Translations under genes and position numbers: made by a program | In this document: piece after piece, positions 9,345 through 46,752 of the stretch | How positions within the stretch are numbered: position 1 is the stretch's first letter | Layout of the letters: each line of letters starts with the position of its first letter | NCBI GenBank assembly: GCA_903893215.1 | Contig: CAITLJ010000031.1 | Location: 1-64,000 of the forward strand | From: an uncultured Ferrovum sp. | Lineage (GTDB): Bacteria; Pseudomonadota; Gammaproteobacteria; Burkholderiales; Ferrovaceae | Length of the DNA stretch: 64,000 bases | Direction of reading: 5' to 3' | The notes under the pieces: model-generated | Seen by the model: the letters and a program-made list of their open reading frames with translations, nothing else | The model's database searches: none | Told to the model about the DNA's origin: nothing

Positions 9345-11410
<2,066 letters not shown>

Positions 11411-11510
11411 CCCGGGCTGTCCTGGCCGGGCGCCCTGACGCCCGCAGCCACGGCCCGCAATCAATGAAAAGGCGGGCTGAAGGCTGGCCCGCAAACTGGA
11501 GAACAAGATC

Positions 11511-12095: not shown

Positions 12096-12112
12096 GCAGG
12101 TCAGAATAGGGT

Positions 12113-28256: not shown

Positions 28257-29000
28257 ATGGCGAAGATCAACTGGTTCAAATATGCCGCTCCGGCCACGTT
28301 CTACCCCCTGGCTGGCCGGCTGGCGCCCTGGTTTCAGGCCATGGCAGTGCTGCTTGGCGCGGTAGGCCTGTATATCGGTTTCTTTGTGGCACCCACCGAC
28401 TTTCAGCAGGGTGAGGCTTACCGGATCATCTTCATCCACGTGCCGGCGGCCTGGATGTCCATGTTTCTCTATCTCCTGATGGCGGCGTATGCCGGTCTCG
28501 GTCTGGTGTTCAACACCCGCCTTTCCTCCATGATGGCCCGTGCCATTGCACCCACCGGTGCCATGTTCACCTTTCTGGCCCTGTGGACTGGTTCGATGTG
28601 GGGACGCCCGATGTGGGGGACTTACTGGGTATGGGATGCGCGCCTGACCTCTGAGCTGATCCTGCTGTTCCTGTACATCGGCTTTATCGCCCTGCAGGCA
28701 GCAATCGACGATCCGCGCCGCGGGGATCGCGCAGGCGGCGTGCTGGCCCTGGTCGGTGCCATCAACGTGCCGATCATTTATTTTTCGGTGAAGTGGTGGA
28801 ACACCCTGCACCAGGGTTCCAGCATCAACCTCACGCGTGCCCCCTCCATGGCCAGCATCATGCTCTGGGGCATGCTGGTGATGGCACTTAGCTTCTGGGC
28901 GTACAGCATCGCCGTGATCCTGTCGCGCGTGCAATGCGTGATTGCGGAGCGCGAACAGCGCGCAGCCTGGCTGCAGGCCCTTGGGGCCGAACAGGGCTGA
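28257..29000 (+). CDS. ccmC: Haem-handling protein CcmC
   Basis: A 247-residue membrane protein with six helices and the tryptophan-rich motif WGRPMWGTYWVWDARLTSELILL. Flanking histidines in IFIHVPAAWMSM and WWNTLHQGSS would bind haem for transfer to CcmE. The ATG has AAAGGACGAAG upstream. In intact ccm operons ccmD follows directly; here a bidirectional terminator follows, and ccmD lies 14.5 kb further on. Confidence 0.95.
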   Translation: MAKINWFKYAAPATFYPLAGRLAPWFQAMAVLLGAVGLYIGFFVAPTDFQQGEAYRIIFIHVPAAWMSMFLYLLMAAYAGLGLVFNTRLSSMMARAIAPTGAMFTFLALWTGSMWGRPMWGTYWVWDARLTSELILLFLYIGFIALQAAIDDPRRGDRAGGVLALVGAINVPIIYFSVKWWNTLHQGSSINLTRAPSMASIMLWGMLVMALSFWAYSIAVILSRVQCVIAEREQRAAWLQALGAEQG

Positions 29001-29029
29001 TCCGCCAGCCGGCGGTCCGTGCCGCCAAC

Positions 29030-29068
29030 GCAAAAAAAAGGGGCGCCTGCATTGCGCCCCTTTTTTGC
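29030..29068. terminator. Bidirectional terminator between ccmC and the Fe-S flavoprotein gene
   Basis: GGGGCGC and GCGCCCC separated by seven bases are flanked by an A run on the left and a T run on the right, so the hairpin can end transcription in both directions. It closes the ccmABC part on the plus strand and the convergent flavoprotein gene on the minus strand. Confidence 0.9.
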
Positions 29069-29089
29069 AGGTCTGGCGTCGACTCGCCG

Positions 29090-30436
29090 TCAGTCGTCTT
29101 CCACCTCGCCATGTTTGGTAGCGAAATTGATGCCGATTTCCTTCAGCACCGGGGTGGGCAGGATACCGCCGGCACAGATGATGATGGCGTCGTTCGGCAG
29201 GTCCTCGCGGCCGGCCGTGGTCTCGAACAGCAGGTGATCCTTGTGGATTTCGATCACCTTTGACTTGAGTTCCACCCTTACCCGCCCTGCTTCCACCTGG
29301 GCCTTCAGGCGGGTGCGGTTCTTTTCCTTCACCCGGCTGAAGGCCTCACTGCGATACGACAGCGTGACCGTGGTGCCTTCTTCTTCCGACAGGGCAATCG
29401 CGGCCTCCAGCGCACTGTCGCCGCCACCCACCACGGTGACATGCTGGCCACGGTACTGCGCGGCATCGATCAGCCGGTACATCACCTTGGATTGCTCCTC
29501 GCCCGGCACATCGAGCTTGCGCGGCGTGCCGCTGCGGCCGATGGAGAGCAGCACATTGCGGGTCTTGATCGGGCCTTGATCGGTCTGGACGATGAAACCC
29601 TTGCCGTCCGGGTCTTTTTCGATCTTTTCCATGCGGGTGCGGAAATTGATGCGCAGGCCGGTCTTGCCCACCACCTCCTGCCAATACTCCAGCAGCCGCT
29701 CCTTCTGCACTTCCTTGAACTGCATCTTGCCGATCAGTGGCAGGTTGACCGGTGCGGTCATGGCGATCTTGTTGCGCGGGTAATGAAACACTGCACCGCC
29801 CAGGCTGGGTTCCTGTTCGATCAGCACGTAATCAATCTTTTTTTCATGCGCGGCCAGACCCGCGCCAATGCCTGCAGGACCACAGCCCACCACCACTACG
29901 TCCTTCTGGTCACTGCGCTTCTTGTCCTTGCGACTGATGATGTTGTACATCGCCTGTTTGCCCTGTTCGGCTGCTTTGCGGATCAGCCCCATGCCACCGA
30001 GCTCACCGGCAATAAAGATGCCGGGCACGTTGGTTTCGAATTCGGGCGTCAGTTGCGGGATGTCAATGCCGCGTTTTTCCGTGCCGAATACCAGCTTGAG
30101 CGCGTCCACGGGACATGCGGGCAGACAGGCACCATGTCCGATGCAATGCGCCGGGTTTACCAGATAGGCCTTGCCCTTGATGATTCCGATCGCTCCTTCC
30201 GGGCAGGCGGTGACGCAGGCTGCGGCACAAATGCAGCTTTCCAGGTTGATCACCGGGTGCAGCGAGGGTGGCTCGACCATGCCTGTTTCCAACGATTCCT
30301 GCCAGGTACGGACGGCAAGCTGCTCCCGTTTGGTGCGATTGCGCAGGTACAGGCCATAAGTCACGGCCGCTGGCACCGCAAAAAGTAACAGGCTGTAAAC
30401 GGTCTGGGCGGCGCTGTTGGCGTCTTGGGCTGGCAT
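29090..30436 (-). CDS. Membrane-anchored ferredoxin-domain flavoprotein (FAD/NAD(P) oxidoreductase)
   Basis: A 448-residue protein: one N-terminal membrane helix (about residues 13-30), a 2x[4Fe-4S]-like domain (residues 65-115), then a flavoprotein. In both cluster motifs the second canonical cysteine is replaced: C68-x-C70-x3-C74-x3-C78-P, and C98-x2-His101-x2-C104-x3-C108-P. The segment NVPGIFIAGELGGMG (about 136-150), normally near the C-terminus of such reductases, comes before the first Rossmann fold VVVVGCGPAGIGAG; a second Rossmann fold is VTVVGGGDSALEAA. The C-terminus stops after CAGGILPTPVLKEIG. It probably moves electrons between NAD(P)H or ferredoxin and the neighbouring membrane cytochromes. 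Divergent from the cytochrome b gene. Confidence 0.82.
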   Translation of the reverse strand: MPAQDANSAAQTVYSLLLFAVPAAVTYGLYLRNRTKREQLAVRTWQESLETGMVEPPSLHPVINLESCICAAACVTACPEGAIGIIKGKAYLVNPAHCIGHGACLPACPVDALKLVFGTEKRGIDIPQLTPEFETNVPGIFIAGELGGMGLIRKAAEQGKQAMYNIISRKDKKRSDQKDVVVVGCGPAGIGAGLAAHEKKIDYVLIEQEPSLGGAVFHYPRNKIAMTAPVNLPLIGKMQFKEVQKERLLEYWQEVVGKTGLRINFRTRMEKIEKDPDGKGFIVQTDQGPIKTRNVLLSIGRSGTPRKLDVPGEEQSKVMYRLIDAAQYRGQHVTVVGGGDSALEAAIALSEEEGTTVTLSYRSEAFSRVKEKNRTRLKAQVEAGRVRVELKSKVIEIHKDHLLFETTAGREDLPNDAIIICAGGILPTPVLKEIGINFATKHGEVEDD

Positions 30437-30684
30437 CAGGGATAACTCTTTAAAGGGCGCAAGGTACGATAGACCGCATCTGGAGACAAGTGATTTTGTT
30501 TAAGAAAATCATCGGATTCAAACAACTAGTTAAGGTACGAATCATTGACACGGGATTTTTTCCCACGTAATCTGCGCTCATGTTGCCACAAATTTTGACG
30601 TTAATTCGACGTACGCTGCACGACCAATCGAACCCGCGTGCCGCCTGCGATACAAAAACCTCTTAATATTCAGGCTTCTTAGAT
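30437..30684. promoter_or_regulatory. Divergent promoter region of the electron-transfer cluster
   Basis: A 248-bp AT-rich gap between the minus-strand flavoprotein and the plus-strand cytochrome genes. It holds the inverted repeat TGATTTT/AAAATCA at 30491-30511 (seven-base spacer), a good candidate for a dimeric regulator that controls both directions. No ORF in it was convincing. Exact promoters could not be fixed. Confidence 0.5.
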
Positions 30685-31584
30685 ATGAGCGATTTTTCAC
30701 TGGCATCGTCAAGCACCCCGCCGGCACGACTGGCGGGTAGCAGGGCCGGGCGCAGTGCGCGCGAAATGTGGATCGGGTTGTCACAGTTTGCGCTCGTTGC
30801 GGTGGCTTTCGCCATCACGCGTATCTGGAAGTACACGTCCGGATCGGACATGGGTTACAACCTTGGACTGGTTGGTGGCCTGATGATGCTGATCCTGCTG
30901 GTCTATCCCCTGCGCAAGCACGTGCGTTTCATGCAGAACTGGGGTCGCACCAAGCCCTGGTTCCTGTTTCACATGGCCATGGGACTGGGCGGGCCGGTGC
31001 TGGTGCTGGCGCATACTAATTTCCACTGGGGCTCGATGAACGCGGCCATCTGCCTGTTCAGCATGATCATGGTGGCGGGCAGCGGCATCATCGGGCGCTA
31101 TATATATGTTGCGATCCACCAGGATCTGACCGGTCAGCGACTCAGTCTGGGTGACCTTCAGCGTGATGCCGGCTTTCACGGTGATGAAGTGCATTCCCGT
31201 CTGGCGTTTGCGCCCGAAGTCGAGGCCAGCCTGCGCGCCTTCGAAGCCTCGGCCCAGCGTGGCCAGCACCGCGCCATGTGGAGTGCCATCAATTTCCTCA
31301 CCCTGGGTTTTCGCGCCAACAGTGTTCGTTCCAAGGCCGGTCGGTTGCTGGTGCAGGGCGTGCGCCGTCAGGCTGCCATCGATAGCTGGGACGCCGGGCG
31401 CCAGGCGCGCCGTCTACACAATGGCCGCAATCTGGTCGAGGCCTACCTGCAAGGCGTGGTAAAAGTGGCACGCTTCAATACCTGGGTGCGCCTGTTCTCG
31501 CTCTGGCACGTGGCGCACGTACCCCTGGTTTACATGCTGGCCCTGACTGCTGCGGCGCACGTTGTTGCCGTGCACATGTACTGA
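30685..31584 (+). CDS. Cytochrome b-like multi-span membrane protein of the electron-transfer cluster
   Basis: A 299-residue inner-membrane protein with about five hydrophobic helices (near 29-48, 57-76, 92-110, 118-140, 270-298). Histidines in helices suited to bind b-type haem are H96, H110 and H114 (LAHTNFHWG) and H275, H278, H292 and H297 at the C-terminus (WHVAHVP and AAAHVVAVH). No CXXCH motif occurs. A soluble, Arg-rich segment lies between helices four and five. Likely role: link the quinone pool or the adjacent Fe-S flavoprotein to the periplasmic multihaem cytochrome, whose gene starts three bases after this stop. No named family was recognised with certainty. Confidence 0.75.
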   Translation: MSDFSLASSSTPPARLAGSRAGRSAREMWIGLSQFALVAVAFAITRIWKYTSGSDMGYNLGLVGGLMMLILLVYPLRKHVRFMQNWGRTKPWFLFHMAMGLGGPVLVLAHTNFHWGSMNAAICLFSMIMVAGSGIIGRYIYVAIHQDLTGQRLSLGDLQRDAGFHGDEVHSRLAFAPEVEASLRAFEASAQRGQHRAMWSAINFLTLGFRANSVRSKAGRLLVQGVRRQAAIDSWDAGRQARRLHNGRNLVEAYLQGVVKVARFNTWVRLFSLWHVAHVPLVYMLALTAAAHVVAVHMY

Positions 31585-31587
31585 GCA

Positions 31588-33705
31588 GTGTCGGTCCTGT
31601 TCGTGCGCTTTCACGCCAACTTCTCCCAAATCCTGCGCAGCGCCCTCGCGGTCGCTGTGCTGCTGTTTGCATGCCTGTTTGTCGCGCAGGCGCAAGCGGG
31701 GGTGCTCGAGGGCGTGCTGGAGCCGGGTGCCACCATTGAAGGGCATGCCAAGGCCGAGAAGGAATGCAGCAACTGCCATTCCAACTTCAATCGCACCGGC
31801 CAGGACACGCTGTGCATTGATTGCCACAAGGAAATTGCCCGTGACCTGAAGGAAAAACACGGTTTCCACGGCAAGATGACGCGCGAGGCCTGCAAGAGCT
31901 GCCATACCGAACACAAAGGGCGGACTGCCAGAATCGCCGAATTCAACCAGCAGCAGTTCAACCACAAGCTGACCGAGTTCAAGCTGGAAGGCGCGCACAT
32001 CAAGACCGCATGCAAGAGCTGCCATGTGGCCACGGTCAAGTACCGCGATACCGCCACCACCTGCAACGGCTGTCACAAGAAGGACGACAAGCACAAGCAG
32101 CGCTATGGCCCCAAATGTGACACCTGTCATTCGGTGGCGAACTGGAAGGAAATCCTGTTCAACCATGACCGGGACACCAAGTACGCGCTGCACGGCAAGC
32201 ACGTCAGCACCAAGTGCGATGACTGCCACACTGGTAACGATCTTTATCACGACAAGATTGGCACGGACTGCGTGTCGTGCCACAAGAAAGACGACAAGCA
32301 CAAGGGCACGCTGGGGCCAGATTGCGCCAAGTGCCATACCGAAAAGTCCTGGAAGGACGAAAAGTTCGACCACGACAAGACGCGCTTCCCGCTTGAAGGC
32401 AAGCATGATGACGTGGAATGCAAGGGCTGCCATAAGAGCACCAATTTCAAGGAAGCGCCGCGCGATTGCCTGTCCTGTCACAGGAAGGATGACAAGCACA
32501 AGGGCAATTTCGGTCCCAAGTGCGAGTCCTGCCACAATGCGGTGGCCTGGAAGGTGATCCTTTTTGATCACACGCGCGATACCAAATACCCGCTGCGCTG
32601 GAAGCACATGCAGGTGAAGTGCACGGATTGCCATGCCGGCGACCTTTACAAGGACAAGCTGAAGGAAGATTGCCTGTCTTGTCACAAGAAGGATGACAAG
32701 CACAATGGCACGCTGGGCACACGCTGCGAGGACTGCCACAGTGAGAAGGACTGGAAGGACGTGGGCAAGAAATTCGACCATAGCAAGACCAAGTTCCCGC
32801 TGCTCGGCAAGCATGAGCCGGTCAAGTGTGATGACTGCCACAAGTCCAAGGTGTACAACGAGGCCCCCAAGGATTGCCTGTCATGCCATCGCAAGGACGA
32901 TACCCACAAGGGCCGTTTTGGCGTGAAGTGTGAAACCTGCCATAACGCCAATTCCTGGAAGGAAATCCTGTTCAATCACGACAAGGACACCAAGTATCCG
33001 CTGCGTGGCAAACACATCAAGACCAAGTGTGATGACTGTCATACCGGCAATCTGTACAACGACAAGCTCAAGCAGGATTGCATTGCCTGCCACCGCAAGG
33101 ATGACAAGCACGAAGGTCAGGAGGGCACCAAGTGCGAGCGTTGTCACGTCGAGAAGGACTGGAAGACCATCGTGCGTTTTGACCACGGACTCACGCGCTT
33201 CCCCTTGCTCGGCAAGCACGAGAAGGCCGAGTGCAAAAGCTGCCACGAAACGCCCAGGTTCAAGGACGCCAAGGTGGATTGCGTGTCCTGTCATGCGAAG
33301 GAAGACGACAAGACCCACAAGCGCAGGCTGGGGACCATGTGTGAGCTTTGCCACAATGCACGCGACTGGAAGCATTGGGATTTTGATCATGACAAGCGCA
33401 CCAAATTCATGCTGGATGGCGGGCACAAGGGCCTCGACTGTTACGCTTGTCACAAGCGGCCTGCTGACAAGCGCGCCTCGCTGTCGAGCACCTGCGTCAG
33501 TTGTCATGGCAGCGATGATGTGCACGAAGGCAAGTTCGGCAAGGTGTGCGAGCAATGCCACGTGACCAGCAAGTGGAAAGTGATCAAGGAAGGCTCCGGA
33601 GCAAACCGGCGCAGCAGCATGTTGTGGATACCGTTGGCCAGACTAGCGCTGGGCGGCGGAGCAATCAGTTCAAGCCGTCAGCCTGTGGCAAGTGCTGGCA
33701 GTTAA
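31588..33705 (+). CDS. 27-haem periplasmic c-type cytochrome built of triheme repeats
   Basis: A 705-residue protein starting at GTG, with a signal peptide (hydrophobic SALAVAVLLFACLFVAQ, cleavage near AQAGVL) and 27 CXXCH motifs counted by eye. Three motifs form an N-terminal part; the other 24 fall into eight tandem repeats of about 67 residues, three haems each, with recurring SCHKKDDKHKG, WKEILFNHD and TKYPL.GKH. Numerous extra histidines can serve as distal ligands. The Lys-rich composition suggests a basic protein. It is probably a periplasmic electron wire between the membrane cytochrome b and the giant cytochrome. The last 40 residues (after KWKVIKEGSG) have no haem motif and look unlike the repeats; a frameshift near 33590 is possible. 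Confidence 0.93.
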   Translation: MSVLFVRFHANFSQILRSALAVAVLLFACLFVAQAQAGVLEGVLEPGATIEGHAKAEKECSNCHSNFNRTGQDTLCIDCHKEIARDLKEKHGFHGKMTREACKSCHTEHKGRTARIAEFNQQQFNHKLTEFKLEGAHIKTACKSCHVATVKYRDTATTCNGCHKKDDKHKQRYGPKCDTCHSVANWKEILFNHDRDTKYALHGKHVSTKCDDCHTGNDLYHDKIGTDCVSCHKKDDKHKGTLGPDCAKCHTEKSWKDEKFDHDKTRFPLEGKHDDVECKGCHKSTNFKEAPRDCLSCHRKDDKHKGNFGPKCESCHNAVAWKVILFDHTRDTKYPLRWKHMQVKCTDCHAGDLYKDKLKEDCLSCHKKDDKHNGTLGTRCEDCHSEKDWKDVGKKFDHSKTKFPLLGKHEPVKCDDCHKSKVYNEAPKDCLSCHRKDDTHKGRFGVKCETCHNANSWKEILFNHDKDTKYPLRGKHIKTKCDDCHTGNLYNDKLKQDCIACHRKDDKHEGQEGTKCERCHVEKDWKTIVRFDHGLTRFPLLGKHEKAECKSCHETPRFKDAKVDCVSCHAKEDDKTHKRRLGTMCELCHNARDWKHWDFDHDKRTKFMLDGGHKGLDCYACHKRPADKRASLSSTCVSCHGSDDVHEGKFGKVCEQCHVTSKWKVIKEGSGANRRSSMLWIPLARLALGGGAISSSRQPVASAGS
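32011..33561 (+). repeat. Eight in-frame tandem repeats of about 200 bp encoding triheme modules
   Basis: From 32011 to the last CXXCH at 33561 the coding sequence repeats about every 200-207 bp. Each unit has three haem motifs in the order C-x-x-CH (TG/KS), SCH+KDDKH, CxxCH-x4-W, then FDH/FNH-D and KYPL-x-GKH. The units are diverged at DNA level, showing an old expansion under protein-level constraint. Confidence 0.85.
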
Positions 33706-33726
33706 GGTGTTAGCGTGGGGTTCAGA

Positions 33727-36700
33727 ATGAAGACAAAAACCGGATCTGATTTCATGAGTGTCTTTCGCCAGCTGATGCTGGCGTTGGCATTTGCTTTGGC
33801 CAGCCTGATGTTGCCCGGCCAGGCACAGGCTCAAACGTCACCGGCCAGCTTCAACCATGACACCACCATGTTTTCGCTGCGTGGTGCGCATGAAATCGTG
33901 CGTTGCGAAACATGTCACGTGAACGGCGTGTTCAAGGGCACCGTGCGCCAGTGCGACATCTGTCACGCCAAGGGCAACAAGATGGGCGCTGTTCCCATGA
34001 CCGTGAACCACATCCCGGTCACCGATACCTGCGACGTGTGCCACAACACGTCCACCTTTGCCGGCACCCAGTTCACCCACGCCATGGTGATGCCGGGCAC
34101 CTGTAACACCTGCCACAATGGTTACTACGCCAAGGGTAAGAGCCCCAGCCCGCCGCACCCGGTCACCAGCGCCTCCTGCGACCTGTGTCACAGCATCGGT
34201 TCCTTCCTCAATGCCATCCGCTTCGATCACGCGGCATCGGGCATTTTTGCCGCACCGACGCACGCCGGCCCCGCCTGCGATTCCTGCCACAACGGCGTAC
34301 GTGCGGAAGGTAAAGACCCCGGTCATGTGCCGGTGCCATCCAGTGCTGCCTGTGACGATTGCCATCGCCAGACCGCAGCCTGGAAACCGGCATTGTTTGC
34401 CCATGAGGCTGCGGGCATTTCTTCGCAGCCCAAGCTGGGCCCCGCCTGCTCGTCCTGTCACAACGGCACCAAATATCTGGGCAAGCCAGCCGGCAATGCA
34501 CACATCCCGACCGCGCAGGACTGCTCGCTGTGCCATGGCACTTCACCGATCGTGAACCCGGGCGGTTTTGCGCTGGGTCAGATGGACCACACCGGCATCA
34601 CCACCAACTGCGCCAGCTGCCATGGCTACAACTCGCCGTATCCGCCGCTGGCCGGCAAGCCGGTGGTCACGCCCAACTCCTACCTGTCCAACCACATTCC
34701 GGTGCAGGGCGTGGCCTGCGAGGCCTGCCACAGCGCCAGCATGTTCGATTCATTTGCCGGTGCGGTGATGAACCACTCGGTGGTGACTGGCACCAGTTGC
34801 GCCACCTGCCACGAAGACGGCACCAACTTTGCCGGCAAGACCAATTCCACGCTCACAGTGATGCGCTCTACCCTGGGCACACACTACCCGGTGCCGCTCA
34901 ATATTGCCTGTTCGGTCTGTCATACCAGCACCACCGACTTCAGCCAGGGAATTGTGTACAGCCCGAGCGGCCTGCACCAGGCCGCCGTGGTCAACGCCGG
35001 CTGCGCCAGCTGCCACAGTGACGGCAGCGGCCCGTTTGCCGCCAAGCAAAGCCTGGTCAACCTGTCGGCAACGGCCGGTGTCAGCGCCAGCGGCCTGCCG
35101 CACATCGCACTCAACGCCAACGTGGATTGTTCCAGCTGTCACGTGGCCGGCACGATCAGCAGTTTCAACCCGGGCAATAATGGTTTCCGCCTGCCAATCG
35201 GCATCACCACCCCCAGCCTGAACTCTGCGCAGCACGCTTATGTGTCGACAAGTTGCACTACCTGTCACGGCGGCACCACCACGTCGGATTCGGCGGCCAG
35301 GTTTGCCGGTATCGTAGCCAGCGGGGCTTCGGCGGGAGACACCTGGCCACCGGCCAGCCTGGATGCAGCGCACCAGTCCTATGGCAACAACTGCGCCGGC
35401 TGTCATGCCACCACACCAACATTCCTGAGCAACGGTGCTGGTAACGTCAAGCCCGCTGGCCACATTCCGGTCGGTAGCCTGACCTGCGTGACCTGTCACG
35501 GTGCGCCGGCCTCGTACACGGCCCCCAACCTGGTTGCCACGCATACCACCGGGCAAGCCTGTGCGGTCTGTCACAACAGCACCCAGTCGTCGGCAGCGGC
35601 CTCGCTCGGCACGCCGCTGCTGCGCTTTAACAGTGACAATGGCAACCACATCCCGCTGCTGGGCAACCTGGCAAACGCCAGCGCCGGTGCGGGTACCCCA
35701 ACCTGTGATTCTGCCGGTTGTCACGCCAATTACAGTGCGTCCGGCCAGTCATTTGTGCTTGGTGCCGGGGCGAATCCGTCACAGGGACAACTGAACACGC
35801 CGACACTGAATACCCTCGGACATAACACCGTCTATGCCGCAGGCAGCACGTCCTGCTCGAGCTGCCATGAAAACGGCGCTGGTCCATATCAAGGCATGCT
35901 GGCCACCAACAACACCACCAGCAGTCGCGGCGACACGCGTCCCACCTACGGCAATCACCCGACTGCGGCAGCCGGTGGCGATTGCTCGAACTGCCACTCC
36001 ACCACGCCGATGTTTAATCAGAACTACTCGCAGAATGCGCAGCCCGCAGGCCACATTCCGGGCGGTTCGGCCACCTGTTTGCAGTGCCATACGGTAGCAA
36101 ACGGCAGCAACTTCGCATTGCCCAGCGTGGCGGCAACCCACTCCTCGCAGAACCAGGCGTGTTCGGTGTGCCATAACGCCACGGTCAATGCAGGCATCAC
36201 CAACCACTTGGCGGCGCTAAGCACCACGGGCTACACGCCGGGGCTGCCGCTCTATAACGACACAACGCACTTTCCAATTGGCGCCACGGATTGTGCAGCG
36301 TCGGGGTGTCATGCGTCCTATGCAACGTCAACCGTGTTCACTCTGGCACGCACGGCGTCAGGTTCGCCTTCCGTGGCCTTTGCCGGCCATGCGTCGGTGA
36401 CCTCGCAAACCTGCGTCAGTTGCCATCAGGCAGGTTCCAATTTCAAGGGCATGGTCACGTTGGCCACTGCCAATCCGACCGACGTAGTCCCGTCGACAGA
36501 CGCGCTGCACCAGAATTACACCGGCGATTGCGGCACCTGCCACACCACGTCGCCGCTGTTCATGACCAACCCCATCACGCTGCCGCCCAACCATATTCCC
36601 ACGGGTACAGTGGGTACAAAATGTACCAGCTGCCATGTGTCCGGTAATTACACAACAGCTGCGCCGGTCAACCTGGTCACCACCCACGCCACTGGCACGG

Positions 36701-39700
36701 CCAAATGCGCAACGTGTCACGACAGCTCCGTGGCCGCAGGCTTCCTGACCGATCACGCGATTGTTTCGCAGGCTTCGGTCACGAATCACATTCCGTTCGG
36801 TACGCTGGATTGCGTGTCGTGCCACAACAACTACAGTGCCGCCGCACCCAATTTCAAGATCGGTACCGGTCTGGCGTCGATCACCACGCCTACCCTGAAC
36901 GTGGCGCAGCATACCCTGGTGGCCGGGGCCGGCCTCACTACCTGTGGTACCTGTCACACCCAGCCCACCGGTACCGTGTATTACGGCATGGTGGCCAGCA
37001 AGGTGGGGGGCGGTGACCAGTTCCCGAGCGTTACCGAGGACCCCAGTCATCAGACCTATACCGGTGATTGCTCAGCCTGTCACACCACTACGCCCACGTT
37101 TGTAAACAATGCAAACGGAAACGCCAAGCCGACCGGTCACATCCCGACCGGCACCCTGGCCTGTGCCACCTGTCACGGCAGCCCCGCCTCCTATACGGCG
37201 CCCAATCTGGTGGCTACCCATACCACCGGCCTGGCCTGCGCCGCCTGTCACAACGGCACCCAGTCGTCGGCTGCGGCCAATCTTGGCACGCCTGTTCTGC
37301 GTTACAACAGTGATAACGGCAACCACATTCCTATCGGCACACTGGGCAGCACCACAGCCGCGGCCGGGGCACTGACCTGCAACGCGTCGGGTTGCCATAA
37401 CAATTACACGGCCTCCGGTCAGAACTTCATCCTGGGTTCTGGCGCCACGCCAACCAATGCGCAGATCACGACGCCGACACTGGCGGTGACTGGTCATAAC
37501 AGCGTGCTGGCGGCGGGGGTGACGGGTTGCAACACCTGTCATGCATCGAGCAGCCTGTATCAGGGCATGGTGGCCACCATCAATACCAGTGCCACTTCCG
37601 GTACGGCGGGTGACACCCGTCCGACCTACAACGGCCACCCGACCGGCACCACGGATTGTGGATCGTGTCACTCCACCACACCCACCTTCAAGTCGTCGCC
37701 GTCCACCTCGGCCCAACCGGCCGGCCATATTCCCAGCGGCTCGGCGGCCTGTAGCGCCTGCCATACGGCGGCCAGTGGTAACAATTTTGGTCCGCCCGAC
37801 ATCGGCCTGACCCACTCCAGCCAGTCCCAGGCGTGCTCGGTATGCCATAACGCCACTGTCAGCAACGCTATCACTGCCAATGCCGCTGCACTCGGTTACG
37901 GTGGTACAGCGGCCAAGCCCACGGTGTACAACGACACCACGCACTTCCCGATCGGCAGCACCGATTGCGCGGCGTCGGGATGCCATTCCGCCTATGCCAC
38001 GTCCGCCGTGTTCACGCTGTCCAGAACGGCGGCAGGTTCGCCTTCGGTGGCATTCGCCGGCCACAGTTCGGTGACCTCGCAGACCTGCGTCAGCTGTCAC
38101 CTGGCTGGCGCCAATTTCAAGGGCATGGTGACGTTGGCCAGCGCCAACCCCACCGATGTGTTCCCGTCGACGGACGCACTGCACCAGAGCTACACCGGCG
38201 ACTGCGGCACCTGCCATACGACCACCCCGCTGTTCATGACCAACCCGAGCGTGCTGCCACCCAAGCACATTCCGATTGGCTCTGTGGGGGTTGCCTGCAC
38301 CAACTGCCATGTCTCGGGCAATTACGCCACCTCGGCACCGGTCAACCTGGTCACCACGCACACCACCGGCCAGACCTGTCTGACCTGCCACGCGTCAGCG
38401 GTTTCGGGCACGTTCCTGACCGACACGCCGATCAAGAACGAAGCTTCGGTGGCTGGTCACATTCCCTTTGGGACCGCTGACTGCGCTATCTGCCACGGCA
38501 ATTACACCGCCAGCGTGACCAACTTCAAGATGAACGTTACGGGCACGGCGTCGATCACGGTACCCACGCTGAACGTGGCCCAGCATGCTGCGGTGGCCTC
38601 GGCCGGTCAGACCACCTGTAGCACCTGCCACACCAGCGCCACCGGCACGGTATATCTGGGCATGTTGTCTACACGGGTTGGGGGTGGTGATCAGGTACCG
38701 AGTGCAGCAGAAGACGCCGCGCACCCGGTCGTGGGTGGTCAGGATTGTTCGGCCTGCCATAACACGGCGCCGACCTTCAAGACCAATGCCAGCGGTGGTC
38801 TGCCGACCAACCACATTCCGTTGACTGCTTTCCCGGCCACGCCAGCGTGTACGGCCTGCCACATCAATTCCGGCACCTACGTGACGGCGCGGATGAACCA
38901 CTCGCCCTCCACGGGGGGAGTGACCAGCGGTTGTACCACCTGTCATGGCGTCGCTGGCGTGGCACTGAGCTTTGCCAACGTGAAGCCGCTGCCGCAGCCC
39001 GCCAACCACATTCCGACCACGGTGGGCTCCATCGCCAATGCTTGCGAGAAGTGCCACGCCAATGCCGTGACGCAGAACTTCAACAGCTTTGCCGGCACTG
39101 TGATGAACCACAGCACCATCACCAGTGGCTGTATTACCTGCCACGGGGTGGGCAAGGCTTCGGCGTTCTATGGCGTGACCATGGTGGTGGCGCCGAATGC
39201 GGCAACGGACGGTCACCAGTACGTGGCCAGTCTGGCTTGCGAGACCTGCCACAACAACACCACCGTGACCGGCGGCTTTGCCAACGGCAAATTTGTGCAC
39301 TCCACCGTGAGTGGCACCACCTGCATGTCCTGCCATGAAATTACCGGCAATCCAGGTGCCAAGACGTTCAGCGGTGTGCCCAGCATCTGGATGCGCAACA
39401 GCAAAACCCACTATTACCCCGGAGGTTCTGGCGGCGGCCCTGACTGCACCACCGGCTGTCACCAGCACAGTACCAACGACAAATCGTTGGGCACCGGCAC
39501 CACCGCAGAGCCAGCTGCCGTGCTGAGCGCCACCAGTGTGGCCTTCAGTTCCACGGCGGTGAGCACCGCAGTGACCAAGACCGTCCAGTTGAACAACCCG
39601 GGTACGGCCGCATTGACGCTGACCAGCTTCGTGATGTCGGGAACCAACTCAGCCGACTTCACGCAGACCAACACCTGCGGTACCTCGCTGGCCGCCGGCG

Positions 39701-40863
39701 GCAGGTGCGTGATCACGGTCAGCTTCAAGCCGGCTGCGGCTGGCAATCGTACGGGCACGCTGACGATCACTGACAATGCGGCTTCCAAGACCCAGGCGAT
39801 CACGCTCACCGGCGCTGTGGCGACGACCACCCTGTCGGCGGCCAACGTGGTGGCGCTCAGTTCGACGGGGATCGGGGTGGCTTCGCCAACCCAGGTACTG
39901 ACCTTTACCAACACCAGCACTGCAGCGGTTGGGGTCAGCAGTGTGGCGATCAGTGGCACGAATGCAGCCGACTTCAAGGTGGCATCGAATACCTGCTCGA
40001 CCACTGCGCAGGCGGCCGGGTCCAGCTGCGCCATCACCATCGGCTTCACGCCCACCATCAACACCGCCCAGGAAAGCGCCCTGCTGACCATTGCTGACAC
40101 TGGCTTCCCCAGCGCTTACGTGCTGCAACTGGTGGGCTCTACCGGCACACAAAGTGCGGCTGCCCAGCAACGCCGTGTATCCGCTGGCAGCCAGGTGCTG
40201 AAGGGCGGTCTGCCCGCGTCGGTGGCTGCGGTGCTTGGCACCCCCGTGACCAATGGCGGCAGTCCGATGATCGGTGCACGCGGCAGTTTCAGCGCGCCGC
40301 CAGCGGCTGCCGTTACCGGTACAGGGACAACACCGGCAACGATCACACCGGCCCTGCGCAGCACCGTGGTGCCGTCCGTCCTGGCCGCTGCCATCACGCC
40401 AGTGCCGGCAGGTGGGCTTTACAACCACGCCAATGTGCAGCCAGGCCAGTGCTTCAGCTGTCATGACGGTGGTGTCCACAACGGGGTCAAGGTGGACGGC
40501 AAGCCGGCCAACCATATCCCGTCAGTGAACACGTGTGACACCTGTCACCGCACCACGAGCTGGGTGCCGGCCCTGTTCAATCATTCAGCAAGCGCGGCGG
40601 GTACACCTTGCACGACCTGTCATAACGGACGGACCTCGGCCGATAGCAAGCCTAAAAACCACTTCCTGACAGTGCGGACCTGCGACACTTGCCACAACAC
40701 GCATAGCTGGTTGCCTGCGGTATATCAGCACATGTCCCCGCGTTACAGCTCGCAAAACCCCAACCTGGCCTGTAATACTTGTCACGTTGGCAACACGGAA
40801 ATGGTTCCGCTCAACGCCTCGATCCGGCCCAACCTGGGTGGAACGCGCGGGCGGACCCACTAA
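33727..40863 (+). CDS. Giant multihaem c-type cytochrome (54 CXXCH, 4 CX4CH, 1 CX3CH) with ASH-like domains
   Basis: A 2,378-residue secreted protein; signal peptide residues about 12-40 (LALAFALASLMLPGQAQA). An upstream in-frame GTG (33715) would add four residues. Counted by eye there are 54 CXXCH motifs, four CX4CH (CDSAGCH, CAASGCH twice, CNASGCH) and one CX3CH (CTTGCH). Forty-nine CXXCH and all wider motifs precede residue about 1,920; two immunoglobulin-like ASH/choice-of-anchor-D repeats (about 1,926-2,139, with GTNSADF and GTNAADF) follow; five CXXCH end the protein. There is no obvious membrane anchor or lipobox. It is likely an outer-membrane or cell-surface electron conductor working with the adjacent porin. 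Confidence 0.92.
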   Translation: MKTKTGSDFMSVFRQLMLALAFALASLMLPGQAQAQTSPASFNHDTTMFSLRGAHEIVRCETCHVNGVFKGTVRQCDICHAKGNKMGAVPMTVNHIPVTDTCDVCHNTSTFAGTQFTHAMVMPGTCNTCHNGYYAKGKSPSPPHPVTSASCDLCHSIGSFLNAIRFDHAASGIFAAPTHAGPACDSCHNGVRAEGKDPGHVPVPSSAACDDCHRQTAAWKPALFAHEAAGISSQPKLGPACSSCHNGTKYLGKPAGNAHIPTAQDCSLCHGTSPIVNPGGFALGQMDHTGITTNCASCHGYNSPYPPLAGKPVVTPNSYLSNHIPVQGVACEACHSASMFDSFAGAVMNHSVVTGTSCATCHEDGTNFAGKTNSTLTVMRSTLGTHYPVPLNIACSVCHTSTTDFSQGIVYSPSGLHQAAVVNAGCASCHSDGSGPFAAKQSLVNLSATAGVSASGLPHIALNANVDCSSCHVAGTISSFNPGNNGFRLPIGITTPSLNSAQHAYVSTSCTTCHGGTTTSDSAARFAGIVASGASAGDTWPPASLDAAHQSYGNNCAGCHATTPTFLSNGAGNVKPAGHIPVGSLTCVTCHGAPASYTAPNLVATHTTGQACAVCHNSTQSSAAASLGTPLLRFNSDNGNHIPLLGNLANASAGAGTPTCDSAGCHANYSASGQSFVLGAGANPSQGQLNTPTLNTLGHNTVYAAGSTSCSSCHENGAGPYQGMLATNNTTSSRGDTRPTYGNHPTAAAGGDCSNCHSTTPMFNQNYSQNAQPAGHIPGGSATCLQCHTVANGSNFALPSVAATHSSQNQACSVCHNATVNAGITNHLAALSTTGYTPGLPLYNDTTHFPIGATDCAASGCHASYATSTVFTLARTASGSPSVAFAGHASVTSQTCVSCHQAGSNFKGMVTLATANPTDVVPSTDALHQNYTGDCGTCHTTSPLFMTNPITLPPNHIPTGTVGTKCTSCHVSGNYTTAAPVNLVTTHATGTAKCATCHDSSVAAGFLTDHAIVSQASVTNHIPFGTLDCVSCHNNYSAAAPNFKIGTGLASITTPTLNVAQHTLVAGAGLTTCGTCHTQPTGTVYYGMVASKVGGGDQFPSVTEDPSHQTYTGDCSACHTTTPTFVNNANGNAKPTGHIPTGTLACATCHGSPASYTAPNLVATHTTGLACAACHNGTQSSAAANLGTPVLRYNSDNGNHIPIGTLGSTTAAAGALTCNASGCHNNYTASGQNFILGSGATPTNAQITTPTLAVTGHNSVLAAGVTGCNTCHASSSLYQGMVATINTSATSGTAGDTRPTYNGHPTGTTDCGSCHSTTPTFKSSPSTSAQPAGHIPSGSAACSACHTAASGNNFGPPDIGLTHSSQSQACSVCHNATVSNAITANAAALGYGGTAAKPTVYNDTTHFPIGSTDCAASGCHSAYATSAVFTLSRTAAGSPSVAFAGHSSVTSQTCVSCHLAGANFKGMVTLASANPTDVFPSTDALHQSYTGDCGTCHTTTPLFMTNPSVLPPKHIPIGSVGVACTNCHVSGNYATSAPVNLVTTHTTGQTCLTCHASAVSGTFLTDTPIKNEASVAGHIPFGTADCAICHGNYTASVTNFKMNVTGTASITVPTLNVAQHAAVASAGQTTCSTCHTSATGTVYLGMLSTRVGGGDQVPSAAEDAAHPVVGGQDCSACHNTAPTFKTNASGGLPTNHIPLTAFPATPACTACHINSGTYVTARMNHSPSTGGVTSGCTTCHGVAGVALSFANVKPLPQPANHIPTTVGSIANACEKCHANAVTQNFNSFAGTVMNHSTITSGCITCHGVGKASAFYGVTMVVAPNAATDGHQYVASLACETCHNNTTVTGGFANGKFVHSTVSGTTCMSCHEITGNPGAKTFSGVPSIWMRNSKTHYYPGGSGGGPDCTTGCHQHSTNDKSLGTGTTAEPAAVLSATSVAFSSTAVSTAVTKTVQLNNPGTAALTLTSFVMSGTNSADFTQTNTCGTSLAAGGRCVITVSFKPAAAGNRTGTLTITDNAASKTQAITLTGAVATTTLSAANVVALSSTGIGVASPTQVLTFTNTSTAAVGVSSVAISGTNAADFKVASNTCSTTAQAAGSSCAITIGFTPTINTAQESALLTIADTGFPSAYVLQLVGSTGTQSAAAQQRRVSAGSQVLKGGLPASVAAVLGTPVTNGGSPMIGARGSFSAPPAAAVTGTGTTPATITPALRSTVVPSVLAAAITPVPAGGLYNHANVQPGQCFSCHDGGVHNGVKVDGKPANHIPSVNTCDTCHRTTSWVPALFNHSASAAGTPCTTCHNGRTSADSKPKNHFLTVRTCDTCHNTHSWLPAVYQHMSPRYSSQNPNLACNTCHVGNTEMVPLNASIRPNLGGTRGRTH
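35392..37068 (+). repeat. Tandem duplicated 15-haem unit, copy A
   Basis: A 1,677-bp (559-codon) unit that begins at the haem motif CAGCH and contains 13 CXXCH and two CX4CH. It splits into three pentaheme submodules of 197, 182 and 180 residues. Shared landmarks with copy B include ASYTAPNLVATHTTG, NDTTHFPIG and FKGMVTLA. Confidence 0.9.
37069..38745 (+). repeat. Tandem duplicated 15-haem unit, copy B
   Basis: Directly follows copy A and has the same length (1,677 bp) and the same order of 13 CXXCH and two CX4CH motifs, beginning at CSACHTTTPTF. Internal small insertions and deletions cancel out. A third start of the pattern (CSACHNTAPTF at 38746) degenerates within about 40 residues. Confidence 0.9.
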
Positions 40864-40879
40864 ATTGCTCTGGAATCCC

Positions 40880-43522
40880 ATGAAGCCACCGCATTCGCGC
40901 CCAGGCGGCCAATCCAACCTTGAAGGCAAGCGGTCAGGGCAGGGGGCCCTGCTGCTGACTGCGGCACTGTTGTTGGCTGCTCCATTGCCACCTGCCTCGG
41001 CGCAAACACTGGATGAAATTCAGGTGGAGGCGGTCAAAAGCGATGCGGTGATCCGCATCAAGTTCAATGGACGTGTGCGCTATATCCGTCAGTCGCCTAC
41101 GGCATCTTCGCCGACCGACCTGCTGCAGGTGACCTTCCAGGTGATTTCGTTGGACGACCCGGCGGCGGTCTCGCTGGTGGAGGAAGCCAAGGTGTCGCCG
41201 GTGGATGCACCCGGGCCGGCCTTCACCGTGGTATACCCGCCCCAGCAGAACCATGTGATGCGCGTGCTCACCGTGCGTTTCAACAACAAGGTCAGCGCGC
41301 AGGTGCGGGCCGGGGCGGGTGACCGCGTGATCGAGGTGGTGATCAAGAATGCAGCGCGCCTGCAGCCTGGTATTGCGGCGCCTGCACCAGCCGCTGCCGT
41401 AGCGCCAGTGGCTGGCAACGCGGCGACCGGTGCGGACACTGGAATGCCGGTCACGGGTACCCCAGCGTCTGCTTCGCGTACTTTGGTGGACGCGTTCGCT
41501 ATTACCCTGCAACAGTTTTCGGGCAAGGATAGCGGTGCGCCGGTGGCCTTGCCCGCGGGGTTTGAGCGCTACTCGCTGTTCAATGTCCCCCTGTCCGGCA
41601 AGGACGGCGGGTATGAAGTCAACCTTGGCTATTTTCCCGATGCCAATGCCGCTGAAGCAGCGCGTCAGTCCCTGTTGGCCAGCTTTCCGCAGGCTGTGGT
41701 GTTCGATGCCGAGCAGCGTAAACAGCAAAACCTGAATTCCGCCGCAGCCGCGCCAGTGAACAATGCCAATGGTCCGGTGGACAGTACAACACCTGCGCCG
41801 ACAGCCGGCGCACCGACTGAAGTCAGCCCGATCGATGCCAAGGCCGAAGATTTGCTGGTGGCTGCTGCCGATGCGGTGTCGGCAAAGAATTACGGTGGCG
41901 CCATTGATCTGCTCAATCAGGTGTTGCTGCTTCCGCCCAATGCATCGTCACAGACCGCGCAGGAACTCATCGGCGTCGCCCGCGAACGCAGCGACGAGAT
42001 TGCAAAGGCCCGCACTGAGTACGAGTTGTATCTCAAGCTGTTTCCGACCGGTGAGGGGGCCGACCGGGTGCGTCAGCGTCTGGCCAACCTGGGGGGGGCG
42101 CCCGTGGCCCCGGTGGTGGTGGCCGCGCCCGCAGCGGCGGATGGGACGCCTGCACAGGCTGCATCTGCCGATGCACAATCCGCACCGCGCAAGACGCCCA
42201 ATGTGGTCCAGAAAAGCATTACTGGTGCCATTTCCCAGTTCTATTACGGCGGTCAGACGCGCACCCAGACCCTGCTGAACGTGCCGACCGGCATCAACCA
42301 GACCACGCTGACCGGGGTGACGCAGTCGGCCCTGGTGACCAACCTGGACGCGACTGCGCGTTATCGCGACGCGGACTCTGATTCCCGCATGGTGTTGCGG
42401 GATACCAACACTGCCAGCTTCCTGACGGGTGGGCACGGCAGCAACCAGCTCACCGCCGCGTATGTCGATTACAAGGACCTGGTGTCGACACTGGGTGTCC
42501 GTGCGGGGCGCCAGTCCGGCGCATCGGCAGGGGCCATTGGCCTGTTTGACGGCATTTCTGTGGGGTACTCGATCACCCCGCGCATCCGTGCCAACGTTTC
42601 GGTGGGGCAGCCGTCCGATCCGATCACGGCGCCGCACCAGCGCTTTGAAGGTTTTGATGTGCAGGTGGATGAAGTGCTGCCCGGTGTGGGCGTGGGTGTC
42701 TATGGCATCAACCAGACCGTCGATGGTGTGGTCAGCCGTCGCGCCCTGGGTCTGGAGGGGCGCTATTTTTCGCCGCACTACTCGCTCTATGCGGCCAGCG
42801 ACTACGACACCTCGTTCAAGGCTACCAACTCCACGGTCATCCAGGGCACGGCCACCACCGATGACCAGCAGGTGCTTACCGTGTTGTTTGACCATCGCCG
42901 CATCCCCAATCTGGATATTGGCAATGCCCTGATCGGCAGCAATTTCACCTCGCTGCAGGACATGCTCAACCAGTTGGGCTATGCACAGGTGCAGCAGCTG
43001 GCGGCACAGGTTGCGGCAGTGTCGCGTCAGGCGGTGGTGAGTTACTCCCGGCCGGTGACCGAGCACTGGCAGGCCAGCACCGATGTGCGCTGGTCGGACA
43101 TTGGCGCCCTGCCGGCCATTGGCTTGGCACCTGCGCAGCCCGGCACCGGCAGCCAGATGAGCTACAGCCTGGTAGCCACTGGCTCCAACCTCTACTCGCA
43201 GCGCGATACCAATGTGCTTAACATGACCGTACTCAACAGTGCGCAATTGCACGGCGCGCAACTGGCTTATAATAATCTTACGGCAGTGATGCAAAACCAG
43301 CTGTCACTGGAACCCTCGATCCGTCTGTATGTCCAGAACGACAACCTCGGGCTTCATACCACCCGGATCACACCTGGAATGCGTGCCAGTTACCGTCTGA
43401 CCCAGGTTGCCTCGATTGAAACCGAAGCCATCCTCGAATTGTCGAAGGTGACAGGCCCTACCAGCAACGAAGACGCTAAAAACGCCTTCTATTACGTCGG
43501 ATACCGCTACGACTTCCGGTAG
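40880..43522 (+). CDS. Outer-membrane beta-barrel protein with SPOR-like and TPR-like regions
   Basis: An 880-residue exported protein: signal peptide to about residue 42 (LLLAAPLPPASA|QT), an AMIN-like beta region (about 43-165), an Ala/Pro-rich linker, a SPOR-like segment (about 200-283, YEVNLGYFPDANAAEAAR), a TPR-like helical part (about 320-405, AGRAL-type repeats with YELYLKLFPTGEGADRVRQRL), and from residue about 440 a long series of alternating amphipathic strands ending YVGYRYDFR, a typical outer-membrane barrel terminus. It starts 17 bp after the giant cytochrome. Likely the porin that carries electrons or a cytochrome through the outer membrane. Alternative: a biofilm or polysaccharide export-type barrel. 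Confidence 0.75.
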   Translation: MKPPHSRPGGQSNLEGKRSGQGALLLTAALLLAAPLPPASAQTLDEIQVEAVKSDAVIRIKFNGRVRYIRQSPTASSPTDLLQVTFQVISLDDPAAVSLVEEAKVSPVDAPGPAFTVVYPPQQNHVMRVLTVRFNNKVSAQVRAGAGDRVIEVVIKNAARLQPGIAAPAPAAAVAPVAGNAATGADTGMPVTGTPASASRTLVDAFAITLQQFSGKDSGAPVALPAGFERYSLFNVPLSGKDGGYEVNLGYFPDANAAEAARQSLLASFPQAVVFDAEQRKQQNLNSAAAAPVNNANGPVDSTTPAPTAGAPTEVSPIDAKAEDLLVAAADAVSAKNYGGAIDLLNQVLLLPPNASSQTAQELIGVARERSDEIAKARTEYELYLKLFPTGEGADRVRQRLANLGGAPVAPVVVAAPAAADGTPAQAASADAQSAPRKTPNVVQKSITGAISQFYYGGQTRTQTLLNVPTGINQTTLTGVTQSALVTNLDATARYRDADSDSRMVLRDTNTASFLTGGHGSNQLTAAYVDYKDLVSTLGVRAGRQSGASAGAIGLFDGISVGYSITPRIRANVSVGQPSDPITAPHQRFEGFDVQVDEVLPGVGVGVYGINQTVDGVVSRRALGLEGRYFSPHYSLYAASDYDTSFKATNSTVIQGTATTDDQQVLTVLFDHRRIPNLDIGNALIGSNFTSLQDMLNQLGYAQVQQLAAQVAAVSRQAVVSYSRPVTEHWQASTDVRWSDIGALPAIGLAPAQPGTGSQMSYSLVATGSNLYSQRDTNVLNMTVLNSAQLHGAQLAYNNLTAVMQNQLSLEPSIRLYVQNDNLGLHTTRITPGMRASYRLTQVASIETEAILELSKVTGPTSNEDAKNAFYYVGYRYDFR

Positions 43523-43561
43523 GCGAGCGGTCCGCCAACCTCTTTGGAAGTTAATTGCCTG

Positions 43562-43741
43562 ATGCATTGGAATTCCCTGCAGGACTTTCTGGCCATGGGT
43601 GGCTACGCGTTCTTCGTGTGGAGCTCGATGGCAGTCACCGCAGCCGCCCTCGTGGTTGAGTTGCTCTCCTTGCGTGGTCGCCATGCGCGGCTGCGCAACG
43701 CCCCATCCTCTGATTCAATTACCAAAAGCACATCAACATGA
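43562..43741 (+). CDS. ccmD: Haem exporter small subunit CcmD
   Basis: A 59-residue single-span protein: SLQDFLAMGGYAFFVWSSM then a hydrophobic helix and a basic LRGRHARLR tail. This is the CcmD pattern; it holds CcmE to the CcmABC complex. A TTG start 18 bases upstream is possible. It begins 39 bp after the porin gene with no terminator seen, so it may be co-transcribed with the cytochrome cluster. Its TGA overlaps the ccmE ATG. Confidence 0.88.
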   Translation: MHWNSLQDFLAMGGYAFFVWSSMAVTAAALVVELLSLRGRHARLRNAPSSDSITKSTST

Positions 43742-44211
43742 AGCCAAGAAGCAAACGGCTGTTCTGGATTGTTGGCGGCATTGCGGGGCTGGCCCTGGTG
43801 GTCGGTCTCGTGCTCAATGCCTTTCGCAGCAATCTGGTATTTTTCTTCACGCCCAGTCAGATCGCCGATAAAGAAGCCCCCGTTGGTCGCGCGTTTCGGG
43901 TTGGCGGCATGGTGGTCAACGGCAGTCTGCAGCGCCATGGCACCGACGTGCATTTCGTGGTTACGGACACCGTAAAGACGGTGCCAGTGCGTTACACCGG
44001 CATCCTTCCCGACCTGTTCAAGGAGGGCAAGGGCGTGGTCGCCGAGGGGCAACTGGACGCGGCTGGCGAATTCCATGCCAGTCAAGTGCTGGCCAAGCAT
44101 GACGAAAACTATATGCCGCCCGAGGCCGCCGAGGCGCTCAAGAAGGGGCGTGCCGTGAATGACCGGCTTAGCAAGAGCCTGGTGACCGACAACGGAGGAC
44201 GGGCACAATGA
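43738..44211 (+). CDS. ccmE: Haem chaperone CcmE
   Basis: A 157-residue membrane-anchored periplasmic protein. One N-terminal helix (IVGGIAGLALVVGLVL) is followed by a beta-barrel with FRVGGMVV and the haem-binding HDENYMPPE, where the histidine covalently holds haem before transfer to apocytochromes. It overlaps ccmD and ccmF by four bases each. Confidence 0.96.
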   Translation: MKPRSKRLFWIVGGIAGLALVVGLVLNAFRSNLVFFFTPSQIADKEAPVGRAFRVGGMVVNGSLQRHGTDVHFVVTDTVKTVPVRYTGILPDLFKEGKGVVAEGQLDAAGEFHASQVLAKHDENYMPPEAAEALKKGRAVNDRLSKSLVTDNGGRAQ

Positions 44212-46744: not shown

Positions 46745-46752
46745 GAAACGTC

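Follow-up and report, generated by a model that had tools for sequence, protein, structure and literature searches.

A predicted PCC3 electron conduit nested between ccmC and ccmD in an uncultured Ferrovum species, one case of a recurring PCC3-ccm association

Porin-cytochrome clusters of the type called PCC3 were first described in Fe(II) oxidisers and comprise, according to the text of that study, an inner-membrane protein (IMP) of ~300 aa with two WX3HX13H motifs and an SGXXG motif, haem-rich multihaem cytochromes (MHCs) and a porin (He et al., 2017, PMC5566968). The periplasmic subunit of Gallionellaceae PCC3 is given as carrying 21, 24 or 27 haems (PMC10734462), and the function of PCC3 is described as still without an experimental test (PMC12442390). 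Another conduit family, mtrCAB, adjoins complete ccmA-I gene sets in six genomes, and these ccm genes are discussed in the text of the paper concerned as passenger genes (Baker et al., 2022, PMC8805035). The present analysis concerns a stretch of 64,000 bp (hereafter the window) from an uncultured Ferrovum sp. of the Ferrovaceae (contig CAITLJ010000031.1 of assembly GCA_903893215.1), in which what appears to be a complete PCC3 lies between ccmC and ccmD of the ccm operon for haem attachment (System I). The favoured reading, to which a probability of roughly 60% is assigned, is that the cluster was inserted into the organism's native and only System I operon and couples haem attachment to the conduit.

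The gene ccmC ends at 29000 and ccmD starts at 43562, with 14,561 bp (29001-43561) between them. This insert contains one minus-strand Fe-S/flavin reductase followed by four plus-strand genes, which encode the IMP, a 27-haem MHC, a 54-haem MHC and an outer-membrane barrel. The initial annotation, made from the letters of the window, had placed 14.5 kb with these contents at these coordinates; the TIGR01191 and TIGR03141 matches bear out the boundaries, and domain, motif and model evidence bears out the contents. In what follows, G000 is the window genome, other G numbers are compared genomes and L numbers are fetched loci. The features of the locus are:

24507-26873, plus strand: parC-like topoisomerase subunit gene, presumably parC (named from its sequence and not from a family match), with a homologue 5' of ccmA in G001-G004
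26876-27499, plus strand: ccmA, by position and homology to the ccm operons of relatives
27496-28227, plus strand: ccmB, by position and homology to the ccm operons of relatives
28257-29000, plus strand: ccmC, haem exporter permease (TIGR01191, 232 bits)
29030-29069, usable on both strands: intrinsic-terminator-like hairpin with a T run, 3' of ccmC (-23 kcal/mol, z -2.8)
29090-30436, minus strand: Fe-S flavoprotein (FeSfp), a FAD/NAD(P) reductase with ferredoxin-type motifs, divergent from the IMP gene (Pyr_redox_3, 150 bits; Fer4_10)
30540-30604, plus strand: promoter-like block TTGACA-N17-TAATCT with the palindrome GGGATTTTTTCCC in the spacer and a conserved 3' part, candidate PCC3 promoter
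30685-31584, plus strand: PCC3 IMP, di-haem cytochrome b-like, 299 aa (two WX3HX13H, SGXXG)
31588-33705, plus strand: 27-haem cytochrome c, 705 aa (27 CXXCH), predicted from PCC3 homology to be periplasmic
33715-40863, plus strand: giant cytochrome c, 2382 aa (54 CXXCH, 1 CX3CH and 4 CX4CH), predicted from PCC3 homology to be extracellular
40880-43522, plus strand: PCC3 porin, 880 aa (AlphaFold2 barrel model)
43562-43741, plus strand: ccmD, 39 bp 3' of the porin gene (PF04995 / TIGR03141, 41 bits)
43738-44211, plus strand: ccmE (PF03100)
44208-46220, plus strand: ccmF, by ccm operon homology
46217-46744, plus strand: ccmG, by ccm operon homology
46741-47238, plus strand: ccmH (PF03918, 168.8 bits), single copy in the genome
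47235-48656, plus strand: ccmI (TPR_CcmH_CycH and Ig_CycH), sole strong CcmI match in G000

From the IMP gene to ccmD, the plus-strand spacers measure 3, 9, 16 and 39 bp, as had been proposed at the outset (gaps of 3-39 bp), with the porin start taken, by choice, as the ATG at 40880. All of ccmABCDEFGHI are present and intact, arranged not as a single contiguous operon but with 14.6 kb and the terminator-like hairpin in between. The window sits in a 68,332-bp contig (C31) of a draft genome of 3.27 Mb in 84 contigs; because this genome has one match each to CcmH, CcmE and CcmC and one strong CcmI match, it apparently holds only one ccm set. The order ccmC-PCC3-ccmD is shared by G001 and G002 of the same genus. 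In G002, parC-ccmABC-FeSfp-IMP stand at one contig end and the extracellular MHC-porin-ccmDEFGHI on a second contig, and in G001 the two parts, parC-ccmABC-FeSfp and porin-ccmDEFGHI, likewise fall on separate contigs.

The conduit conforms to PCC3, a known kind of system. Across 19 aligned IMP sequences, W92/H96/H110, W274/H278/H292 and S133-G134-G137 are invariant, and an IMP alignment used as a profile against the PDB had no match at 0.1. The 705-aa cytochrome has one CXXCH per 26 aa, and the 2382-aa cytochrome combines its 54 CXXCH and five CX3-4CH sites with choice-of-anchor D domains; in haem content they correspond to the periplasmic and extracellular MHCs of PCC3, respectively. The porin model contains 22 predicted strands in a barrel at residues 444-879, mostly with pLDDT >85, and on its N-terminal side TPR-like helices (residues 317-403) and a mostly low-confidence part (residues 4-242). 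The porin aligns with 22 homologous porins of other PCC3 loci, and Foldseek matched its model to generic outer-membrane barrels only. It has no TIGR03509 (MtrB/PioB) match at 1e-3, and the extracellular MHC scores 147.9 bits against TIGR03508 (DmsE/MtrA), under the cut-off of 192.2. Thus, the PCC3 label that the initial annotation had given is backed by the IMP motifs, the two giant MHCs, the porin and the gene order, and electron transfer across the envelope is predicted.

Compared with the PCC3 of He et al. (2017, PMC5566968), the window cluster has the same order (IMP-periplasmic MHC-extracellular MHC-porin), the same IMP hallmarks and haem-dense MHCs, but it differs in its insertion between ccmC and ccmD, in an extracellular MHC with 54+5 sites and in the Fe-S/FAD reductase, which is not one of the four PCC3 components in the text of that paper. 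The largest number of haem sites known to those authors was 85. A PCC3 extracellular cytochrome of 4086 aa with 133 CXXCH and 11 CX3/4CH sites is encoded by the open reading frame at L140:7614-19874, 3' of ccmF-ccmH-ccmI and an IMP gene.

The reductase FeSfp has an N-terminal hydrophobic helix, two ferredoxin-type cysteine motifs and an FAD/NAD(P) domain, and its model, of moderate quality (mean pLDDT 72), matches YpdA/thioredoxin reductases. Homologues occur in 93 of 138 counted PCC3 loci (18/19, 35/73 and 40/46 by sample), so it is a common, not a universal, companion. Within residues 68-109, the sequence of the second Fe-S motif is CIGHGACxxxCP; nearly all homologues listed have His in place of the usual second Cys, and the first motif is CICAAAC in the window and mostly CIGSGAC-like or CIGCGSC-like in the homologues. 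The clusters are possibly not cysteine-ligated throughout.

Under the favoured reading, the extracellular cytochrome would take up electrons from donors outside the cell, for example Fe(II), and hand them across the barrel to a periplasm-spanning 27-haem wire, from which they would pass through the di-haem b-type IMP to the quinone pool, and the membrane-anchored FeSfp would pass IMP electrons to NAD(P)+, or the reverse. One conduit set would carry 27 + 59 = 86 covalent haems if every site were filled, and it is because of this need for ~86 haems that coupling to ccm is favoured. A promoter at 30545-30573 would drive the genes from IMP through the 27-haem and 54-haem cytochromes to the porin. 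Without a terminator, this transcript would continue into ccmDEFGHI, and haem attachment would rise with the conduit. Other bacteria appear to answer the same need with a CcmI linked to PCC3 or with a PCC3 placed beside a ccm operon.

The conduit could instead export electrons to Fe(III) or other outside acceptors. A reductase linked to NAD(P) could serve outward flow just as well, and the lack to date of a functional test of PCC3 (PMC12442390) leaves room for this direction. However, the first descriptions of PCC3 come from Fe(II) oxidisers (PMC5566968), the family Ferrovaceae is known for Fe(II) oxidation (PMC13390463), and reaction-centre L/M genes were found in 4/5 of the genus genomes compared (G000-G004), which leaves export as a rather unlikely alternative to import.

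In G000, reaction-centre L and M family genes lie at C13:29365-31025 (L167, L170); because of them, the window host is predicted to be a phototroph, and it is probably light-harvesting. The host genus appears to fit 'Ca. Solisferrum' of Grettenberger et al. (2026, PMC13390463), possibly Species 19; the table of that paper lists no carbon fixation for 'Ca. Solisferrum'. Like the Mto-like/MtrB-PioB loci of Ferrovaceae described there, the window PCC3 belongs to this bacterial family and has a predicted role in extracellular iron redox, but its porin, unlike theirs, has no MtrB/PioB family match. The string 'pcc' has 0 occurrences in the main text of the same paper. A porin of the MtrB/PioB family is encoded at C54:59189-61651 of G000 (L171, L172), the sole such match among the five genus genomes; because of this porin and the PCC3, at least two types of outer-membrane conduit are predicted for G000.

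Several signals bear on transcription of the locus. The 39-bp porin-ccmD spacer of the window folds no better than shuffled sequences (z -0.39) and contains no outstanding hairpin, in agreement with the initial annotation, which had claimed that no terminator stands there. Read-through from PCC3 into ccmD is plausible because the spacer is short and gives no fold better than shuffles, and the conduit may therefore be co-expressed with ccmD-I. The candidate promoter block at 30540-30604, absent from the initial annotation as is the hairpin at 29030-29069, is nearly identical in G002 up to ~25 bp past the -10 (TAACAT in G002) while its flanks diverge. With up to 2 mismatches allowed, G000 and G002 each contain its 19-bp core once, and none was found in the other three genus genomes; the result for G001 is uninformative because no IMP was found there and an assembly gap probably covers the PCC3 promoter. 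A regulon around the block was considered and rejected, the core being single-copy in G000 and G002 and missing from the other three. A looser form of the block pattern matched at 1/174 loci (L115).

The association of PCC3 with ccm recurs beyond the genus. Searches with the IMP gave an order sample, with matches at E <1e-40 in 19 genomes besides the window's among 399 order genomes, and a class sample of 46 IMP loci (41 genomes) among 369 class genomes, from which weaker or partial matches were dropped (G583, G508, G660, G571 and the second pieces of G679 and G752). The ccm genes were called by profile hidden Markov models built for this analysis, with bit thresholds, and a lone 'ccmA' match, with no further ccm gene, was taken for a general ABC ATPase and excluded from the counts. 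Controls were 40 stretches of 20 kb from same-sample genomes, taken only from contigs long enough for a second 20-kb stretch. A further named set of 80 loci (7 repeats) is biased to the window's IMP and was kept outside the control comparison, and three loci stood outside all counts: L007 (distant IMP, G004), L036 (weak IMP, G352) and L165 (second weak IMP, G232).

Among the 65 order and class loci, many of them on contigs that end early, 63 have an MHC gene and 44 a porin gene. At least two ccm core genes were linked to IMP at 5/65 loci, and a CcmI-like gene only at 17 more. Linkage of either kind was thus seen at 22/65 loci, compared with 0/40 controls (Fisher 8e-6). Without five weak CcmI-like hits (39-44 bits; L027, L118, L155, L158 and L159), which may be ordinary TPR proteins, the contrast is 17/65 vs 0/40 (p 1.8e-4). 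One control, L175 from G232, has no ccm gene but includes a reductase match and that genome's second, weak IMP-like gene. For the operon-linked loci, the positional expectation is 0.45 if one 7-kb ccm cluster is assumed per 3.3 Mb (P 1.1e-4), and P is 2.4e-3 with two clusters. By flanks, the class sample divides into 4 operon-linked, 7 CcmI-only, 18 ccm-free (at least 3 kb on both sides) and 17 undetermined loci, and the order sample into 1, 10, 0 and 8, respectively. On a quickly built IMP tree (140 rows, 62 of them scorable), at least 12 changes of the ccm-linked state are required, or 11 without L081. Searched against plasmids, the IMP had a single weak match.

Linked loci show at least three gene orders besides that of the window. 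In L117 (a single-contig genome), L061 and L064, PCC3 lies between ccmG and ccmI, in the order ccmABCDE-G, PCC3, ccmI-H(-F), with L061 ending after ccmH. A porin gene stands 5' of ccmA on the same strand in L039 (Thiobacillus sp. 0-1251), L043, L048 (Curvibacter), L099 and L107, and also, as porin-ccmABC, in L060 (Hydrogenophaga aromaticivorans strain D2P1) and L074 (Pelomonas sp. V22), the strain names D2P1 and V22 belonging to records not titled as metagenome bins. The order in L028 is porin-CcmI-ccmABCDEF. The ccm genes lie 5' of IMP in L136, L140 and L109 (2.1 kb away), and ccmA/B are 1.9 kb away in L144. This variety argues for several origins, in which gain and loss are not told apart. 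One further case, L081:6681-10610, comes from a metagenome bin titled Klebsiella pneumoniae, a title that is probably wrong, and retains part of a PCC3, flanked by ccmI and ccmD. It was rejected as a nesting because its IMP end runs directly into the middle of the porin and MHC genes are absent, and it was treated as a chimera or deletion, although it is included in the 18 linked IMP-tree rows and counts among the 11 linked named-set loci. The initial annotation knew of no PCC3 nested in ccm. No such nesting, and no PCC3-ccm link, was found in the literature searched, which lay outside most subscription papers, figures and supplements and so leaves absence from print unproven; however, a second and different nesting is present in other Proteobacteria (L117, L061 and L064), and adjacency of MtrCAB to ccm is published (PMC8805035). 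The nesting in the window is thus one case of an association which, by gene content, is recurrent and is new relative to that literature.

Some PCC3 loci appear to carry a second CcmI. The PCC3-linked CcmI-like proteins that were scanned contain TPR_CcmH_CycH in 6/6 and Ig_CycH in 4/6. Another strong CcmI is present in 9 of the 11 genomes with a clear PCC3-linked CcmI-like gene (G163, G318, G261, G268, G209, G054, G059, G288 and G483). It falls within the ccm operon in 8 of the nine (in G059, the operon adjoining PCC3), and the extra copies of G288 lie outside the main ccm operon. In a CcmI tree of 50 rows with poorly supported deep order, the PCC3-linked label needs 7 changes vs 15 in shuffles, and PCC3-linked clades span families (e.g., L022, L111, L024, L026 and L028). 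A precedent for a client-linked second CcmI is SirG of Shewanella (PMC6976685). There, and in NrfEFG, a second apocytochrome chaperone is likewise encoded with its client cytochrome, but those clients have odd haem motifs, whereas the predicted clients of the PCC3-linked CcmI are giant multihaem cytochromes. A wider proposal, offered tentatively, treats PCC3 and System I as a single co-evolving module, on the idea that giant, repetitive apocytochromes call for increased or dedicated haem attachment and that lineages have repeatedly provided it by embedding PCC3 in ccm, by adjacency or by an own CcmI. In the window clade, probably phototrophic and on this view taking up electrons from outside the cell, all maturation of c-type cytochromes after haem export would then run from the conduit promoter.

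The site between ccmC and ccmD might alternatively be a neutral landing place, where PCC3 was inserted by accident and is tolerated because an internal promoter still serves ccmD-I, without any functional coupling. A number of observations count against coupling, and some of them fit an accidental insertion directly. Of the genomes examined, just three, all in one clade, have this exact order. Linkage is not required, because 18/46 class loci have no ccm neighbour within at least 3 kb on both sides. The operon-linked loci are too few to differ from controls (5/65 vs 0/40, p 0.15), and the contrast with controls consequently rests also on CcmI-like genes. In G001 the spacer before ccmD is 125 bp, and an internal promoter 5' of ccmD is possible. 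Moreover, co-transcription is not the rule, because the flanking ccm genes face PCC3 in L117, L061 and L064. The candidate promoter, whose -10 (TAATCT) is poor, does not appear among the sigma-70 sites listed by the consensus scan. A strong terminator-like hairpin stands 3' of ccmC in the window genome alone among the nested genomes; it was revealed by the folding calculation and not listed by the consensus scan, and it is not a conserved feature, because the ccmC and reductase stop codons are only ~9 and ~15 bp apart in G001 and G002, with no room for a hairpin. The loci of G163, G318 and G346 are not fully independent, since these genomes share one genus, deep support in the IMP tree is weak with 78/140 rows unscorable since contigs end, no second strong CcmI was found in G434, and the ccm contig of G100 ends before ccmI. 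Against an accident stand the enrichment of PCC3-ccm and PCC3-CcmI linkage (22/65 vs 0/40) and its occurrence in several unrelated gene orders, and a neutral site is therefore considered unlikely.

The favoured reading, insertion into a native operon, is also to be weighed against ccm genes having travelled with the conduit as passengers. The genus comparison covered five genomes (G000-G004) and eight further loci fetched from other Ferrovaceae genera. The operon is a contiguous parC-ccmABCDEFGHI with no insert in G003 and G004, and ccmC adjoins ccmD in 8/8 loci of the other family genera, with ccmFGHI on the other strand (6), 5' of ccmA (1) or outside the fetched stretch (1). The statement in the initial annotation that ccm genes are usually contiguous thus holds for ccmC-ccmD in ten insert-free relatives (2 of the genus and 8 of other genera of the family). 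Among 32 family genomes, IMP was found in three: the window genome, G002 and G004, the last with a distant homologue (26% identity) beside different cytochromes. G001, in which a contig end interrupts the PCC3, gave no IMP match. In a concatenated Ccm tree, the window, G002 and G001 fall on one side of a branch with support 92/93 (not starred), and the ccm genes of the window genus group with those of its insert-free species. The reductase, IMP and porin genes have no internal stops and nonsynonymous-to-synonymous ratios (pN/pS) against G002 of 0.15, 0.28 and 0.30, respectively, and are under purifying selection. The simplest history is one insertion of PCC3 into the organism's only, native ccm operon.

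Travel together has been proposed for MtrCAB (Baker et al., 2022, PMC8805035), and may apply to the porin-ccmA loci L039, L043, L048, L060, L074, L099 and L107. The two systems are alike in linking an extracellular electron conduit to System I genes, but mtrCAB is another conduit family with ccm adjacent and, in the text of that paper, mostly read as travelling, whereas in the window a native ccm is interrupted. In the window genus, co-mobilisation is disfavoured by the same parC-like-ccm order in the insert-free G003 and G004, the grouping in the Ccm tree and the single ccm copy, and this explanation is very improbable. An assembly or binning join, for which only the draft state of the genomes (a 68-kb window contig, 84 contigs) speaks and which the initial annotation had named among the ways its claim could fail, is excluded as far as sequence can do so, because both junctions recur in G001 and in G002, on separate contigs, with G002 proteins differing from those of the window by ~9% (ccmC) to 29% (porin) among those compared.

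Elsewhere in the window, potassium-uptake genes lie upstream (region 7398-14902), with KdpA at 7398-9344 and KdpD at 12113-14902. An open reading frame of 509 aa at 55175-56704, with no Pfam match at 1e-6, adjoins a lipase chaperone gene at 56714-57820 on the minus strand.

We know of no answer to how cells attach tens to >100 haems to one polypeptide. PCC3 conduits are widespread and have a role that is predicted only, and the recurrent linkage of PCC3 to ccm or CcmI is a lead to a dedicated maturation partner for giant cytochromes. For a photosynthetic genus of Ferrovaceae, the window PCC3 is a second candidate conduit beside the Cyc2 and Mto-like routes, which alone are reported in the text of PMC13390463.

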